DNA of 64,000 nt from a virus, in IMG/VR virus record IMGVR_UViG_3300021405_000009, positions 34,240 to 98,239 of that record. One strand, 5' to 3'. Shown here one piece after another: positions 3,592 to 56,217 of the stretch. The first letter of the stretch is position 1. Every line of letters begins with the position of its first letter. The position numbers were made by a program, and so were the translations under genes. Below the pieces are notes generated by a model. That model was not told the DNA's origin, ran no database searches, and worked only from the letters and a program-made list of their open reading frames with translations.

Positions 3592-3891
3592 TCATGCGAA
3601 AAGCGTCTGGAGGGCCGCCCTGAGTTTGGCGCGGAAAGTGGGTGGAGGCGGAGGCGGCTCAACAATCTTAGCGGTGACGCGGTACACTTCGCGGCCTTCG
3701 CCGTTGCAATACAAGTCGGTGAAGTAGCGCTCCACTGCAGGGCCTGCCACGGTCTCGGTCGAGAAGTAGCGCGCGACCATGTACTGGCCGGTGGCCTCGA
3801 CTGAGAACAACTCCATGTCTTCGCCGTTCCTGGCCTTGGGGGCTGCGAAGTCCGGGTTTGTGCTCTTGATTCCGACGAGCTGGATGAGCAT
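3592..3891 (-). CDS. Hypothetical protein
   Basis: 99 residues with a proline run near residue 80 (EPPPPPPTF) followed by a basic amphipathic tail. No family recognised. It sits between the short gene at 3898 and the structural gene at 2869, in the same direction. Confidence 0.5.
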   Translation of the reverse strand: MLIQLVGIKSTNPDFAAPKARNGEDMELFSVEATGQYMVARYFSTETVAGPAVERYFTDLYCNGEGREVYRVTAKIVEPPPPPPTFRAKLRAALQTLFA

Positions 3892-3897
3892 CTTTAC

Positions 3898-4032
3898 TTA
3901 AAATCCTTCTGAAGGCCGCGTCTGTACGCTACCGCACAATTTCACTTGACACGGCAGAGTACAGTCAAAGTTATCCATGCCGTAGAACCAGCCTGACGGA
4001 GTGGATCTGGGCTCCCGCACTCGCTCGGTCAT
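3898..4032 (-). CDS. Short hypothetical protein
   Basis: 44 residues from the ATG at 4032, chosen because a GAGGAG ribosome-binding site lies 10 bases upstream (AGAGGAGCCAACC, a sequence that recurs at 31555 and before 35473). No family recognised. The gene is divergent from the plus-strand gene at 4083. Confidence 0.4.
   Translation of the reverse strand: MTERVREPRSTPSGWFYGMDNFDCTLPCQVKLCGSVQTRPSEGF
3943..3965 (+). promoter_or_regulatory. Family B promoter-like site (CACTTGACA-N8-TACAGT)
   Basis: CACTTGACA at 3943-3951, 8 bases, then TACAGT. This is one of at least six sites with the same geometry. It lies inside the opposite-strand gene and points toward the plus gene at 4083. Confidence 0.4.
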
Positions 4033-4082
4033 AGAGGTTGGCTCCTCTACAAAAACCCTGGGGGCGGGAGTCCTTAATTTCG

Positions 4083-4232
4083 ATGAAAGAAAAAAGTGAA
4101 CGCTTAGATGCACTGCGCGAGATGGAGCGGCACGGGGCATCGAAGCTAGCGATCGCGGCCATGCGGGCCGAGATGGAACGCGGGCGAAAATCAGGCCGGG
4201 CGGTGGTGAAGAAAAAACCGAGGAAACGGTAG
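4083..4232 (+). CDS. Short basic protein
   Basis: 49 residues beginning MKEKSERLDALREM, ending in a Lys/Arg-rich tail (VVKKKPRKR). Probably helical. The alternating Ala/Glu/Arg pattern suggests a nucleic-acid contact, but no family is recognised. A GGGAG-like site precedes the start. Confidence 0.45.
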   Translation: MKEKSERLDALREMERHGASKLAIAAMRAEMERGRKSGRAVVKKKPRKR

Positions 4233-4280
4233 GAGCCCCGCGACTATTACGGGAGCTGTTCTGACTTTCACAGATTTACA

Positions 4281-4375
4281 TCGCGGACAAGGGATGCGGC
4301 TGGAATTTGCAGGAGTCGAACCTGCGACGCTTTTTGAGCGTTTCATCAGGATAACCAGCTCACTTCGGCCCGCGA
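4281..4375 (-). ncRNA. Y-type RNA 7 (Ro60-binding architecture), solitary copy
   Basis: On the minus strand the closing stem TCGCGG (4375-4370) pairs with CCGCGA (4286-4281). Between them lie GGCCGAAG, a second stem GCTGG/CCAGC, TTATC and, on the 3' side, CTTGTC. These are the elements shared by the six RNAs at 53.6-54.3 kb and by known Y RNAs. The apical part holds a perfect tRNA T-arm (4309-4325, GCAGG/CCTGC around TTCGACT) and a hairpin ACGCT-CAAAA-AGCGT (4327-4341), but no D-arm. A promoter was not identified. Confidence 0.75.
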
Positions 4376-4394
4376 ACTTTTTAGGAGGACAGGA

Positions 4395-4643
4395 ATGCCA
4401 AACTTGGGAGACAAGGTACGCGATAAGATCACGGGCCACGAGGGTATCGTCATCGCCCGCACGGAGTGGCTCTATGGCTGCGTGCGCTATGTCGTTCAGG
4501 GCCAGACGCTGCATGAAGGCAAACCCACAGAGCCCCACACTTTCGACGAAGACCAACTCGTCGTCCTCAAGGCCGATGCTCTCAACGACAGCGAAGAGAA
4601 GCCTGCCGGTGGCGATCGCGATTATGTTGCCACGCGGCGCTGA
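4395..4643 (+). CDS. Hypothetical protein, SH3-like small beta protein
   Basis: 82 residues with a strong AGGAGGA site upstream. The pattern GDKVRDKITGHEGIVIART is typical of small SH3-like barrels found in phages, where a Gly-rich turn follows an opening strand. The role is unknown. Confidence 0.55.
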   Translation: MPNLGDKVRDKITGHEGIVIARTEWLYGCVRYVVQGQTLHEGKPTEPHTFDEDQLVVLKADALNDSEEKPAGGDRDYVATRR

Positions 4644-41647: not shown

Positions 41648-42403
41648 GTGGAGAACTCGATGCACGAAGCAGGAACCCCCGAACAGATCACCGCACTATA
41701 CGCAGCTCTCAGCCTGGCCCAGGCGGAATTCCCCAAGATCGAAAAGACCAAGAGCGCCTACAACTACAAGTACGCCCCCATGGACGAGATCGAACTCAAG
41801 ATCCGTCCCGTCCTCATCAAGCACGGCCTGGCCGTCTTCCACCCCATCAACCACGTCGGCGAGAGTGGCAAGCAAGCCGTGGGAGCGCTCATCGTCCATG
41901 CGCTGGGCGGCCGGTTCTGGTGCGATGGGCTCATCATCCAGGAAAGCGCCAAGCCGCAGGACCAGGGCGGGCATATCACTTACGGCCGACGCTATGTCTA
42001 TTGCTCCATGCTCGGCATCACCTCGCAGGACGACGACGAGTCAGTCCTTGCGAAAAGCCCTCGTCGCAGCACCGTGACGAGGCGGGACGGCGTAGCTCAA
42101 GATGGTCGAGCGCCGATCGCTGGACGTAGTTCGGTGCCCCCAGCGCCAGTCGGAGATTCCGGTTCGATTCCGGACCCGTCCCTACCCACTAAACAAGAGC
42201 GCATTGAGTATGTCGCGCGCCTGGGCAACTACCGCAAACAGGTCACCGACGATGCGCTGCGGGCATTCCTTCTGCGCGAGTCGGGCGCATCCGAGACGCG
42301 GCTGATCGCGAAGAAAGACTGGCTCAAGCTACTCACGCAACTCGACGACGCCCTGGCGAAGGGCAAGCTTCTGGAGGCCGTCAGTGAAAATTTCAACCGC
42401 TAG
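41648..42403 (+). CDS. erf: ERF-family single-strand annealing protein
   Basis: 251 residues from the leaderless GTG at 41648 (an ATG at 41660 with GGAG is an alternative). ALSLAQAEFPKIEKTKSAYN, then YAPMDEIELKIRPVLIKHGL and HITYGRRYVYCSMLGI are the ERF core. It anneals complementary single strands in phage recombination and works with the exonuclease and SSB encoded just downstream. Confidence 0.85.
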   Translation: MENSMHEAGTPEQITALYAALSLAQAEFPKIEKTKSAYNYKYAPMDEIELKIRPVLIKHGLAVFHPINHVGESGKQAVGALIVHALGGRFWCDGLIIQESAKPQDQGGHITYGRRYVYCSMLGITSQDDDESVLAKSPRRSTVTRRDGVAQDGRAPIAGRSSVPPAPVGDSGSIPDPSLPTKQERIEYVARLGNYRKQVTDDALRAFLLRESGASETRLIAKKDWLKLLTQLDDALAKGKLLEAVSENFNR

Positions 42404-43154
42404 CAAGATGGGCCGTCGCACCTACCAGGAAGATCGCTATGTCGTCCATCACACCGGCGCTGGCGTTCTCCTGGCCGTCATGGACGGGCACGGCGGTGAA
42501 GATGTCGCCGATGTATGCAAGGACTACGTCGGCCACTTCTTCGATTTAACACTCGTCCCTTTAGACAATGGCGACCCGCGCGCATTTGACAAGGCGCTGG
42601 CACTGACCATCTGGGAACTCAACTGCATCACGAACGAGTATCACTCCGGCTGCACCATCTCGCTAGCCTTTATACCGAAGAGTGAGGACAAGGTCTTCAT
42701 CGCCACCCTGGGTGACTCGCCGGTCATTGTCCGATCGCCAAGTGGAGTTACCTGGATATCTGAAAGCCACAACGCGCGCACCAACCTCGAAGAGCGCGAA
42801 GCGGCCGAGAAGCGTGGCGGCATCTACCACGGCGGTTATATCTGGTGCGCGCCACACGGGCTCTATCCCATGGGCGACAGCGGCCGTGGCCTGCAGATGA
42901 CCCGCAGCCTCGGCGACACCGAGATGGGGCCGGTAATCTCCCGCGATCCCCAGATCGAGATTCACGCGCTGGGAAAGTTTGTCCTCGTGGCCACCGATGG
43001 ATGCTTCGATCCCGGCCATGAGAATGAATCGCAGGCCGTAGCCGACGTGATCGCCCTCATCGACCAAGGCGGAGACGCCAAAGCCATCGTCGATCGCGCC
43101 GTCCAACTTCCCACCGAAGACAACGCAACCGCAGTCTTACTAACCAAGGAGTAA
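42384..43154 (+). CDS. PP2C-type serine/threonine phosphatase
   Basis: 256 residues from GTG. YQEDRY, AVMDGHGGEDVAD, ATLGDSPVIV, MTRSLGD, ATDGCFD and EDNATAVLL are the PP2C motifs with the metal-binding Asp residues intact. It should dephosphorylate Ser/Thr proteins in a metal-dependent reaction. Its place between the annealase and SSB is unusual for a phage. It may counter a host kinase-based defence or tune replication proteins; both are inference. Confidence 0.8.
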   Translation: MKISTASKMGRRTYQEDRYVVHHTGAGVLLAVMDGHGGEDVADVCKDYVGHFFDLTLVPLDNGDPRAFDKALALTIWELNCITNEYHSGCTISLAFIPKSEDKVFIATLGDSPVIVRSPSGVTWISESHNARTNLEEREAAEKRGGIYHGGYIWCAPHGLYPMGDSGRGLQMTRSLGDTEMGPVISRDPQIEIHALGKFVLVATDGCFDPGHENESQAVADVIALIDQGGDAKAIVDRAVQLPTEDNATAVLLTKE

Positions 43155-51720: not shown

Positions 51721-53313
51721 ATGCGATATCTCATTCACCGCGCAGTAGCGATCGGTAACCCGCCCCAGAGTCAGCCGCTGAACGACCGTCAGTCGAAAAA
51801 CAGCGCTGGCGGTTACAGTTTCACTCTGGATAAGTGGGGCAAGCTCGACCGTTTTCTCATCCTAGGCAGCGAAGGTGGCAGTTACTATGCCAGCGAGCAG
51901 AAGCTTACCGAGGAGAATGCCACCAATCTGGCAGCGTGTGTGAAGGAAGATGGCATTAAGGTGGTCAAGCGCATCGTCGAGATCAGCGATGCGGGCCGGG
52001 CTCCGAAGAACGACCCGGCGCTGTTCGCTCTGGCTTACGCCTCGGCGAAGGGCGACGACGACACGCGTAGTGCGGCTCTGGCTGCACTGCCCAAGGTCGC
52101 ACGCATCGGCACGCATCTGTTCCACTTCACCGCCTTCGTCAACACCATGCGAGGCTGGGGCCGTGGACTGCGGAAGGCCGTAGGTAACTGGTATGCCCAA
52201 GCTGGCGAAGAAGATTGGGATCGCCTGGCCGAGCAGGTCACAAAGTACCAACAGCGTGAGGGCTGGAGCCACCGCGATCTACTGCGCCTGGCGCACCCCA
52301 AGCCGACCTGCCGTCCGCACCAGGCAATCGCTAAGTGGGTAGTCAAGGGCGGAGAGTTGAACCAGACCGCGCCCGAGAAGTTGGTGGGCCACGTTGAACT
52401 GCAAGAGGCCACGACGCCGAAGCAGGCCGTGAAGCTCATCACCAAGTACGGGCTCGTGCGCGAGTCCGTGCCCACTGAACTGCTGAAGTCTCCTGAGGTA
52501 TGGGAGGCCCTGCTCGCGCGGATGCCCATGACGGCGATGATTCGCAACCTGGGCAACCTGTCGAAGTGCGGGTTGCTGACTCCATTGAGCGAAGCCTCGA
52601 AGATGGTAGTCGAGCGGCTGAGCGAGGAAGCGCTGCTGAAGAAGGCGCGCGTACATCCGATTCAACTCTTGATCGCGCAAAAGACTTACGGCTCCGGCCA
52701 TGGCAACAAAGGCAAAGGCGAATGGACGCCCGTGCCCCAGGTAGTTGACGCATTAGACGGCGCTTTCTACTCAGCCTTCCAGAACATTATCCCGTCAGGC
52801 AAGCGCTTCTACCTGGGGCTCGATGTGTCGGGCTCGATGTCCTGCGGCGAAGTAGCCGGAGTCAACGACTTCACGCCTCGCGAGGCATCGTCCGCCATGG
52901 CCATGGTCACGGCGCGCAGCGAGCAGAACTACTACGTCGCTGGCTTCCAGGAGCGCATGATCCAGCTCATGATTACGCCGAAGTCGCGGCTCGATCAGAT
53001 CTGCTCTGCTACGGCGAAGCTGCCGTTCGGCTCTACCGATTGCGCCCAGCCCATGCTGGACGCGCTGGCAAAGAAGTTGCCGGTGGACGTGTTCGCGATC
53101 TACACCGACTCCGAGACCTGGAGTGGAACAACGCACCCAACCGTGGCCCTGGAGCGCTACCGCCAGCAGACTGGCATCCCGGCGAAGTTGATTGTCGTCG
53201 GCATGGTGGCCAATCCGTTCACGATCGCCGATCCGAACGATGCTGGCATGTTGGACGTGGTCGGATTCGATTCAGCGACGCCGCAGATCATCTCACAGTT
53301 CGCGGAGGCGTAG
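51721..53313 (+). CDS. rsr: Ro60/TROVE-domain RNA-binding protein
   Basis: 530 residues, full length for a bacterial Ro60 (Rsr). The N-terminal two thirds (about 1-345) is the TROVE HEAT-repeat ring: GGYSFTLDKWGKLDRFLILG, LFALAYASAKGDDDTRSAAL and WSHRDLLRLAHPKPTCRPH are family signatures. The C-terminal third is a vWA domain with MIDAS FYLGLDVSGSMSC (about 363-375). Ro60 holds Y RNAs on the outside of the ring and the ends of misfolded RNAs in its hole. Six Y-type RNAs follow directly, so the partner RNAs are encoded in cis. Confidence 0.92.
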   Translation: MRYLIHRAVAIGNPPQSQPLNDRQSKNSAGGYSFTLDKWGKLDRFLILGSEGGSYYASEQKLTEENATNLAACVKEDGIKVVKRIVEISDAGRAPKNDPALFALAYASAKGDDDTRSAALAALPKVARIGTHLFHFTAFVNTMRGWGRGLRKAVGNWYAQAGEEDWDRLAEQVTKYQQREGWSHRDLLRLAHPKPTCRPHQAIAKWVVKGGELNQTAPEKLVGHVELQEATTPKQAVKLITKYGLVRESVPTELLKSPEVWEALLARMPMTAMIRNLGNLSKCGLLTPLSEASKMVVERLSEEALLKKARVHPIQLLIAQKTYGSGHGNKGKGEWTPVPQVVDALDGAFYSAFQNIIPSGKRFYLGLDVSGSMSCGEVAGVNDFTPREASSAMAMVTARSEQNYYVAGFQERMIQLMITPKSRLDQICSATAKLPFGSTDCAQPMLDALAKKLPVDVFAIYTDSETWSGTTHPTVALERYRQQTGIPAKLIVVGMVANPFTIADPNDAGMLDVVGFDSATPQIISQFAEA

Positions 53314-53578: not shown

Positions 53579-53648
53579 TGACGGGCCGATAGCAGATCGT
53601 TATCATATGCTTGAAAAACAATTACGGTCTGCGACAACTTGTCCGTCA
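53579..53648 (+). ncRNA. Y-type RNA 1, minimal form
   Basis: Closing stem TGACGG (53579-53584) with CCGTCA (53643-53648). Second stem GCAGATCG (53592-53599) with CGGTCTGC (53625-53632). Conserved strands are GCCGATA, TTATC (53600-53604) and ACTTGTC. This is the Ro60-binding fold of Y RNAs. The apical loop is only about 20 bases and has no tRNA-like part. Confidence 0.75.
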
Positions 53649-53657
53649 CCTACTTAC

Positions 53658-53729
53658 ACCGTTGGGCCGCAGTTGGTTCGTTACCTACATTGATTGGAAT
53701 ATACGGACCGACACATTTTGTCTAACGGT
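53658..53729 (+). ncRNA. Y-type RNA 2, minimal form
   Basis: Closing stem ACCGTTG (53658-53664) with TAACGGT (53723-53729). Second stem GTTGGTTCG (53672-53680) with CGGACCGAC (53704-53712). Conserved strands GGCCGCA, TTACC and ATTTTGTC, the most divergent of the set. Both stems covary fully relative to RNA 1. Confidence 0.75.
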
Positions 53730-53737
53730 AAATATAT

Positions 53738-53878
53738 GCGAGGGCCGAAGAGAATTGGTTATCCTCCACCTAAGCCGTACCGGGGGAGTAGCTCAATGGT
53801 AGAGCGCCGGACCTGATCAATCCGGAGGTTGCTGGTTCAAGTCCAGTCTCCATACCGATTCTCGTACCTTGTCTTCGC
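53738..53878 (+). ncRNA. Y-type RNA 3 with complete tRNA-like module
   Basis: Closing stem GCGAG (53738-53742) with TTCGC (53874-53878). Second stem GAGAATTGG (53750-53758) with CCGATTCTC (53855-53863). Conserved GGCCGAAG, TTATC and CTTGTC. The apical insert (53782-53854) is a near-complete cloverleaf: acceptor GGGGGAG/CTCC, D-arm GCTC/GAGC, anticodon-type arm CCGGA/TCCGG with a 9-base loop (CCTGATCAA), AGGTT, and T-arm GCTGG/CCAGT. YrlA-type RNAs carry such tRNA mimics. Confidence 0.85.
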
Positions 53879-53887
53879 TTCATTTCT

Positions 53888-53952
53888 GCGAGGGTCGAAG
53901 TCGGTCTGTTATCACAATGCAAACAGAGACGGACCGCGTAACTTATCTTCGC
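53888..53952 (+). ncRNA. Y-type RNA 4, minimal form
   Basis: Closing stem GCGAG (53888-53892) with TTCGC (53948-53952). Second stem CGGTCTG (53902-53908) with CGGACCG (53930-53936). Conserved GGTCGAAG, TTATC and ACTTATC. Short apical loop without tRNA parts. Confidence 0.75.
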
Positions 53953-53970
53953 TTCATGTTTCACTTGTAA

Positions 53971-54111
53971 GTGCGAGGGCCGAAGCTAGCTGGTTATCTT
54001 GGAACTCTATGTCGTTGGTTCGATTCCAACCGTCCTGGTTCTCCAGGCGTAGTTCAGTGGTAGAACAAGAGTGGCGAAAGCCATTTCCGGCTACATCACT
54101 TGTCTTCGCAT
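53971..54111 (+). ncRNA. Y-type RNA 5 with permuted tRNA-like module
   Basis: Closing stem GTGCGAG (53971-53977) with TTCGCAT (54105-54111). Second stem TAGCTGG (53987-53993) with CCGGCTA (54087-54093). Conserved GGCCGAAG, TTATC, ACTTGTC. The insert is in permuted order: T-arm (54014-54030), 3' acceptor strand CGTCCTGG, four-base loop TTCT, 5' acceptor strand CCAGGCG (54043-54049), TA, D-arm (54052-54066). The acceptor helix pairs with one bulged T. Confidence 0.85.
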
Positions 54112-54118
54112 GAAATCC

Positions 54119-54150
54119 CTGGCCGGGTACTATCTGAGGCATCCGGCCAG
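54119..54150 (+). repeat. Hairpin between Y RNAs 5 and 6
   Basis: CTGGCCGG pairs perfectly with CCGGCCAG around a 16-base loop. No T-run follows. It could be an RNase III-type processing site or a spacer structure between RNAs. Confidence 0.5.
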
Positions 54151-54161
54151 TAAAACAGAAA

Positions 54162-54300
54162 GAGAGCGGGCCGAAAGCTGGTTGGTTATCTACTGCTAAT
54201 AGAGAGGTCGCGGGTTCGAGTCCCGCTGGCACCTTCGGGTGCTATAGCTCAGTTGGCTAGAGCGCTAAAACACCGATTGGCATAGAACTTGTCCGCTCTC
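54162..54300 (+). ncRNA. Y-type RNA 6 with permuted tRNA-like module closed by TTCG
   Basis: Closing stem GAGAGCG (54162-54168) with CGCTCTC (54294-54300). Second stem GCTGGTTGG (54177-54185) with CCGATTGGC (54273-54281). Conserved GGCCGAAAG, TTATC, ACTTGTC. The insert reads CTGCTAA, TAGAG, AGGTC, T-arm GCGGG/CCCGC (54210-54226), 3' acceptor TGGCACC, tetraloop TTCG (54234-54237), 5' acceptor GGTGCTA, TA, D-arm GCTC/GAGC. All seven acceptor pairs form. Confidence 0.9.
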
Positions 54301-54310
54301 TTTTTATTTT
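54294..54310 (+). terminator. End of the Y RNA array
   Basis: The closing stem of RNA 6 (CGCTCTC) runs straight into TTTTTATTTT. The long-range stem plus T-run probably ends transcription of the array. Confidence 0.5.
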
Positions 54311-55390: not shown

Positions 55391-55783
55391 ATGACCCAAG
55401 TCTTTATCAGTGCAGCGTGGAGCAGGCGCGAGGAAGCTCGCAAGTTGGCCGAAGAGATAGAGCATGATGGCGGAGCTTTCGTCAGGGCCGACTGGCTCTA
55501 CTGCGATAAACCGCCGATAGACTCGATCTATCAGGACCTCCGCGACCTCAAGAGTTGCGACGTATTTGTCCGCTTGGCGGACGATCTATCCGAGCCTACT
55601 GTGCCGTCGCATCTGGCCACCGGCGCTCGCATGTTCGAGCAGGGCATCGCGTGGGGCATGGGCGCAGAGATCATCGTAGTTGGTGGTAAGCAAATGTTGT
55701 ACGACCACATGCGGAGCGTGCAGCACGTGAAGAACACTTTGGAACTCAGGAGCGTGTTATGCCCGATCCCCACGCTGCAGTAG
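55391..55783 (+). CDS. Nucleoside deoxyribosyltransferase-like protein
   Basis: 130 residues. QVFISAAWSRREEARKLAEE, then DLRDLKSCDVFVRLADDLSE and QGIAWGMGAEIIVVGG follow the Rossmann-like layout of nucleoside deoxyribosyltransferase and related NAD-processing folds. Catalytic residues are not certain. Nucleotide metabolism fits the neighbours. Confidence 0.5.
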   Translation: MTQVFISAAWSRREEARKLAEEIEHDGGAFVRADWLYCDKPPIDSIYQDLRDLKSCDVFVRLADDLSEPTVPSHLATGARMFEQGIAWGMGAEIIVVGGKQMLYDHMRSVQHVKNTLELRSVLCPIPTLQ

Positions 55784-56217
55784 CGCCAGTCCTTAAGGAC
55801 TCCGGACAGCGCGAAGAGTTTGCCACGGGCTCGGTGCGCGATAAGCAGAAGGGCAAGGGCGCACTTGACCTGGTGCCAGACTGGGTGATCTGGGTTGTGT
55901 CCCGCGTGTACGAGGAAGGCGCGCACAAGTACGCCGCCCGTAACTGGGAAATGGGACAGCCGCTTTCGCAGTACATCAAGAGCGCCGGGAATCATTTGGC
56001 GAAGTTGAAGGCCGGAATGCGTGACGAGCCGCACGCCTCACAGGTGATCTGGAACATGATCGGCTACATCTTCACCGCGTGGCTGGTAAAGACTGGCAAG
56101 CGCCCGAAGGAGTTGAGCGACATGCCTGACCAGTTCAACGCGAAGCCGGGCACGATCGCCGAGCCGCTGTCGCCGTTCGAGTACGAGAGCCTGGAAGTGT
56201 TCACCAAGGGGGCGTGA
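55759..56217 (+). CDS. DUF5664 dATP/dGTP diphosphohydrolase-like protein
   Basis: 152 residues. The order REEFATGSVRDKQKGKGALD, VYEEGAHKYAARNWEMGQPL and SAGNHLAKLKAGMRDEPHAS matches the phage family annotated as dATP/dGTP diphosphohydrolase. It probably trims the purine nucleotide pool. Overlaps its neighbours. Confidence 0.65.
   Translation: MPDPHAAVAPVLKDSGQREEFATGSVRDKQKGKGALDLVPDWVIWVVSRVYEEGAHKYAARNWEMGQPLSQYIKSAGNHLAKLKAGMRDEPHASQVIWNMIGYIFTAWLVKTGKRPKELSDMPDQFNAKPGTIAEPLSPFEYESLEVFTKGA

Follow-up and report, generated by a model that had tools for sequence, protein, structure and literature searches.

In prokaryotes the gene of a Y RNA usually adjoins that of Ro60, although this position is not a defining property. 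The window analysed here (the whole stretch of DNA, 64,000 nucleotides in length) carries a Y RNA-like element on the minus strand at 4281-4375 that does not lie beside Ro60 but 47 kb off and on the opposite strand. The question raised by this locus is whether such a remote element is a real Y RNA and, if so, what it might contribute to the phage. The features of the element are given below; R1 is the covariance model described further on, and RF01053 is the Rfam family of the Deinococcus Y RNA.

4281-4375, minus strand: remote Y RNA, the seventh, 95 nt (R1, RF01053, descriptor)
4368-4375, minus strand: lower stem, 5' strand TCGCGGGC, forming 8 pairs with 4281-4288 (pair probabilities 0.65-1.0)
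4367, minus strand: bulged C of the predicted Ro60-binding site, the second C of GGCCGAAG (fold; site definition of PMC4726728)
4355-4359, minus strand: upper stem, 5' strand GCTGG, partner CCAGC (fold)
4350-4355, minus strand: GTTATC motif at the end of the upper stem (alignment of 46 phage Y RNAs)
4327-4341, minus strand: apical hairpin of 5 bp, ACGCT/AGCGT (fold, RF01053 alignment)
4309-4325, minus strand: tRNA-like T-arm GCAGG-TTCGACT-CCTGC, 5 bp (fold, RF01053 alignment)
4299-4303, minus strand: upper stem, 3' strand CCAGC (fold)
4286-4291, minus strand: CTTGTC, 3' motif of the predicted Ro60-binding site (46-core alignment, R1)
4281-4288, minus strand: lower stem, 3' strand GTCCGCGA (fold and pair probabilities)

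The minus-strand sequence (TCGCGGGCCGAAGTGAGCTGGTTATCCTGATGAAACGCTCAAAAAGCGTCGCAGGTTCGACTCCTGCAAATTCCAGCCGCATCCCTTGTCCGCGA, 95 nt) contains a full Y RNA core consisting of an 8-bp lower stem, a bulged C, CCGAAG, an upper stem, GGTTATC and CTTGTC. The preliminary description had reported a complete set of Y-type elements on this strand, and all of those it named (TCGCGG/CCGCGA, GGCCGAAG, GCTGG/CCAGC, TTATC as part of GGTTATC, and CTTGTC) were located there, spanning exactly 4281-4375. Structure prediction paired positions 1-8 with 88-95, where approximately 7 bp are expected for a Y RNA, with probabilities of 0.65-1.0. The C at 4367 is left unpaired beside pair C8-G88 with CUU opposite, in agreement with R1 and with the published definition of the site (PMC4726728), and the site sequences GGYCGA, GUUAYC and CUUGUC are all present. 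The upper stem is composed of GCTGG/CCAGC plus GTG/CGC. The classical register of Y RNAs places G10 and A11 opposite the UU of CUUGUC; the free-energy fold favours an A11-U82 pair and leaves the rest undisturbed. The apical part consists of the hairpin followed by the T-arm, and both the fold and the RF01053 alignment bear out the original account of a perfect T-arm and a hairpin without a D-arm. The minus-strand fold amounts to -36 kcal/mol with a z-score of -2.9, and that of the plus strand has a z-score of -1.9. A plus-strand reading of the element was rejected, as the models match the minus strand only and the plus-strand fold is the weaker when compared to its own shuffles.

A descriptor scan of the 64-kb window returned seven matches, namely 4281-4375 and six more at 53579-54298, where 0.05 would be expected in order-2 Markov random sequence; the six other copies presupposed by the label of a seventh Y RNA are consequently real. 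The descriptor was designed with the elements already in view, and a model built from the Y RNAs of other phages constitutes the stronger test. R1 is such a model, constructed solely from 46 Y RNA cores of other virus contigs with trimmed loops and a stated structure. Its training set displays 91% pairing and a covariation of 0.70 versus 0.26 in shuffles, figures that are inflated, with E-values that are somewhat flattering, because the sequences were selected for pairing. The exchange of C-G to U-A at column pair 8-52 (39 C-G, 6 U-A) was not required by this selection. Applied to the window, R1 returned 4281-4375 on the minus strand with exact ends as its third-ranked match (38.9 bits, E 5.7e-6), and the covariance-model search thereby supports the Y-type identity that had been assigned by eye. 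The G, the TTA and the final C of the GTTATC motif are invariant among the 46 phage Y RNAs, and the remote copy retains all invariant positions of these cores.

Results for other sequences indicate how far R1 can be trusted. Among 37 Ro60-virus contigs searched whole (2.87 Mb, including G001, which is the same phage without the region of the remote copy), R1 found 47 matches on 25 contigs, and every one of the 47 was situated within 3.0 kb of Ro60 on the Ro60 strand. Since all matches are linked to Ro60 in this manner, R1 is specific and the placement of the remote copy exceptional. Chance resemblance, in favour of which nothing was found, is refuted in practice by the E-value of 5.7e-6 and by zero off-target matches in 2.87 Mb, leaving it a virtually negligible probability. 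The remote element is almost certainly a real Y RNA. An R1 search of the remaining record outside the window gave no further match, although the model misses long forms (it recovers four of the seven Y RNAs of this phage) and remote long copies elsewhere may escape it. Rfam at curated thresholds reported none of the Y RNAs, and an exact-motif DNA pattern with limited gaps gave no match, its gap range being too narrow.

The presumed protein partner and the other Y RNAs of the phage lie together on the plus strand.

51721-53313, plus strand: Ro60 homologue of 530 aa with TROVE and Ro60 vWA domains, presumed partner (domain search, alignment)
53579-54298, plus strand: array of six Y RNAs, three short, one with a whole tRNA-Ile cloverleaf and two YrlA-type (descriptor, Rfam)
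53579-53648, 53660-53727, 53738-53878, 53888-53952, 53973-54109 and 54164-54298, plus strand: members of the array (descriptor scan)

With the remote copy, seven Y RNAs of four layouts are present in one phage. Rfam and ARAGORN both identify a tRNA-Ile(GAT) in the array RNA at 53738-53878, whose cloverleaf is complete but has a degraded acceptor stem, and the same design is seen in another virus contig (L005:8356-8492); annotation pipelines will label both of these cloverleaf-bearing Y RNAs as tRNA genes. The latter contig holds approximately eight Y RNA elements ahead of its Ro60 gene (L005:6921-9926), one of them 207 nt long. The final member of the array has a T-run immediately after its lower stem (54164-54310; CCGCTCTCTTTTTATTTT), and this Y stem may double as the terminator of the array. 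A tRNA-Ser(GGA) was also called by ARAGORN at 42084-42183, unsupported by Rfam at threshold.

The preliminary description went on to propose that Y RNAs have spread within this genome. The remote copy does have its core in common with the array, but a self-BLAST of the record detected no kinship beyond that core, and an old duplication and a separate acquisition would both be compatible with this result. In comparison with any one of the six array copies, two to four base pairs in the remote copy's lower stem are changed on both sides without loss of pairing.

Analysis of the phage Ro60 placed it nearest in sequence to Rsr of D. radiodurans (2nvo, 1.5e-135), followed by human and Xenopus Ro60. 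Lysine, arginine and histidine are found at the positions of Xenopus K170, R174 and H187, which we take to be RNA-contacting residues, and the DxSxS metal site is also aligned. Judged by these retained contact residues, the phage protein is an intact partner. No PNPase or RtcB domain was detected in the whole record, and a RYPER-like complex of the kind discussed previously (PMC8394870, PMC7790460), if formed at all, would thus need a host enzyme. The record also encodes a phage PP2C-type phosphatase and a dATP/dGTP diphosphohydrolase (42384-43154 and 55759-56217), and a search of it for a PurZ-like adenylosuccinate synthetase found none.

The remote element very probably represents a functional Y RNA gene of the bacterial type, read from the minus strand, that combines a Ro60 docking site with a tRNA-like apical module, and its RNA is probably expressed and bound by Ro60. 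The lower stem with its bulged C, together with the GUUAUC and CUUGUC motifs, would dock on the outer side of the phage Ro60 ring, while the apical hairpin and T-arm would project as a small tRNA-like module that could gate the ring or recruit a host partner. Because neither a PNPase nor an RtcB domain was detected in the phage, the partner of the apical module would most likely be host PNPase or another tRNA-recognising protein.

The tRNA-like character of the T-arm also bears on two other explanations. Phage attP sites often contain the 3' half of a tRNA gene, and an attachment site would account for a tRNA-like arm at this position. It would leave the Y-specific motifs unexplained, and we rejected this extremely improbable candidate on the basis that the record contains no tyrosine integrase domain. 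Alternatively, the RNA might act as a decoy tRNA mimic whose T-arm competes for or inhibits anticodon nucleases or tRNA-modifying enzymes of the host, Ro60 serving just to stabilise it. The T-arm has been retained in perfect form and tRNA parts occur in four of the seven Y RNAs of this phage; moreover, a competitive-inhibitor role has been proposed for the tRNA-like domain of YrlA (PMC7790460), on which DusA and TruB act as on a substrate (PMC8394870). However, the remote RNA has no anticodon arm for a nuclease to read and half of the array RNAs are devoid of any tRNA part, and we consider the decoy role unlikely.

The position of the remote Y RNA gene in the genome was evaluated on the closed map. 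The record comprises 98,239 bases with ends (1-148 and 98092-98239) that match over 148 bp at 98%, forming a direct terminal repeat, and these ends are bridged at 99.97% by a second contig whose Ro60 is identical. The matching ends and the bridging contig indicate that the map closes at approximately 98.1 kb and that the genome in this record is closed and essentially complete. Within the window 47.3 kb separate the remote copy from Ro60, and the opposite route around the closed map measures about 49 kb; on a genome of this size the copy therefore sits nearly opposite the Ro60 gene and its Y array. The neighbouring features are as follows.

3592-3891, minus strand: gene that opens the minus (virion) arm, located 389 bases downstream of the remote RNA (gene calls, domain searches)
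4083-4232, plus strand: 49-aa ORF, first of the plus arm, no family (ORF list, family search)
4205-4230, minus strand: possible weak terminator ACCG-TTTCCT-CGGT-TTTTT downstream of the remote RNA (hairpin of -4.1 kcal/mol and U-run)
4395-4643, plus strand: 82-aa ORF, phrog_16275, function unknown, to whose leader the remote RNA is antisense (family match)

The remote copy falls into the gap that separates the first two ORFs of the plus arm (4083-4232 and 4395-4643). This agrees with its initial placement far from Ro60 among small accessory genes, the flanking ORFs encoding products of 49 and 82 aa from the opposite strand. Portal, terminase and long virion-type genes occupy the minus strand in a stretch that begins at window position 3891, descends across the junction and reaches 58.9 kb, and the plus strand encodes DnaB, ERF, Ro60 and many small genes. 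This location speaks to some degree against a functional Y RNA gene, in that a plus-strand gene has a leader to which the remote RNA is antisense. A cis-antisense switch would make use of this very arrangement: minus-strand transcription would silence the beginning of the plus (early) arm, and the only function of the Y fold would be to stabilise the antisense RNA. Along its whole length the RNA is complementary to the leader that separates the 49-aa and 82-aa genes, and only a few bases lie between its end and a Shine-Dalgarno-like AGGAGG. Such a role needs no Ro60-binding motifs, yet all of them are intact, which renders the switch very unlikely.

Signals for expression were sought on either side of the element. 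No sigma-70-like promoter stands out upstream of the remote copy (78th percentile), and the better minus-strand candidate, at the 97.6th percentile, falls in the divergent gap at 3892-4082, downstream of the RNA. No strong terminator was found downstream, and the weak candidate at 4205-4230, which overlaps lysine codons of the small plus-strand ORF, may be due to chance. In addition, no orthologous locus was recovered from virus, phage or genome collections, whether the element or its neighbours served as the query. These results count against a functional gene, and both the promoter search and the missing orthologue would suit a silent relic, that is, a moved or acquired Y RNA gene that has lost its expression. 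Against this explanation, the conserved positions and both stems have stayed intact despite a sequence that has diverged beyond recognition from every other copy, and a relic is hardly probable.

For a functional remote Y RNA, the earlier suggestion of separate expression timing receives partial support. The copy lies on the virion and packaging strand and the array on the replication or early-type strand, but the promoter search lends the suggestion no help. Strand and position suggest that the remote copy is expressed with the late arm, and by this strand logic it is plausible that the phage makes it at a different time than the array. As it occupies the strand of the virion genes where the two arms diverge, it would be made separately from, and probably later than, the Ro60-linked array. 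An extension of this reading envisages two Y RNA programmes, an array rich in tRNA-like adaptors produced with Ro60 and a Deinococcus-type copy produced from the virion strand, so that Ro60 would swap its adaptor late while the same transcript damps the early arm by antisense. We regard this extension as distinctly unlikely; if true, the substrate or nuclease partner of Ro60 would change as infection turns late.

The remote copy adds a new member to a known RNA family, and its arrangement is noteworthy. Prokaryotic Y RNAs are sought beside Ro60, and a well-supported copy located across the genome and in the opposite orientation demonstrates that partners can go unnoticed in this way. The copy also supplies a natural example in which Y RNAs produced at different times could serve a single Ro60, and the occurrence of seven Y RNAs in four layouts within one phage makes the role of the adaptor part directly testable.

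Comparison with other phage Y RNAs emphasizes this arrangement. The Y RNAs beside Ro60 in mycobacterial, Gordonia, Streptomyces and Microbacterium phages and in soil viruses share the core and are found by R1, but all 47 matches in the virus contigs are on the Ro60 strand and within 3.0 kb of the gene, whereas the remote copy lies about 47 kb away on the other strand. Unlinking is nevertheless not unique to this phage, as Streptomyces phage StarPlatinum has an unannotated R1 match at 72777-72863 (MH576965; L060:1278-1364) approximately 9 kb before Ro60. Like the remote copy it is not adjacent to Ro60; it differs in lying only about 9 kb off on the same strand as Ro60, beside a tRNA-Gly gene, and in having no T-arm. 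Blast located this stretch in 49 records, belonging to the genera Karimacvirus and Samistivirus where checked, and across the two genera its core is invariant and its upper stem altered on both sides in a compensating manner. This different locus supports the view that unlinked phage Y RNAs may be maintained by selection. A sister phage Y RNA (L023:9453-9552) also has a T-arm and no D-arm, with a similar order of hairpin and T-arm readable. The best family match of this RNA (over L023:9451-9553) is to RF01656, the model of nematode sbRNAs, with an E-value of 0.004, ahead of all bacterial Y families.

Among established families, the closest layout is that of the Deinococcus radiodurans Y RNA. 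RF01053 aligns to 4277-4376 on the minus strand over the full model with 30.6 bits (E 9e-4 for a 301-base stretch and 4227 families); this is below the gathering score of 80, so that the remote copy is similar in layout and is not filed as a member of that family, and a whole-record Rfam search with coarser filters did not report the RF01053 match at the remote copy. Both RNAs have a lower stem with a bulged C, an upper stem and a hairpin followed by a T-arm, without a D-arm, and because hairpin aligns on hairpin and T-arm on T-arm, the absent D-arm represents the Deinococcus layout rather than a defect. The remote copy differs in its shorter loop region, in being phage-encoded and in its distance from its Ro60 gene. 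Vertebrate Y RNAs are RNA polymerase III transcripts. YrlA and related bacterial Y RNAs (RF02553; Salmonella, Mycobacterium) likewise combine a Ro60-binding lower stem with a tRNA-like apex, but YrlA contains a T-arm, an acceptor-like arm or hairpin and a D-arm in permuted order, and the remote copy has the T-arm only. Bacterial Y RNAs are described as highly divergent and as lacking homology to the vertebrate clades, and nematode sbRNAs count as homologues of Y RNAs (PMC4726728); with the vertebrate Y RNAs and sbRNAs the remote copy shares the seven-base-pair helix with a single bulged C in the Ro60 site (PMC4726728).
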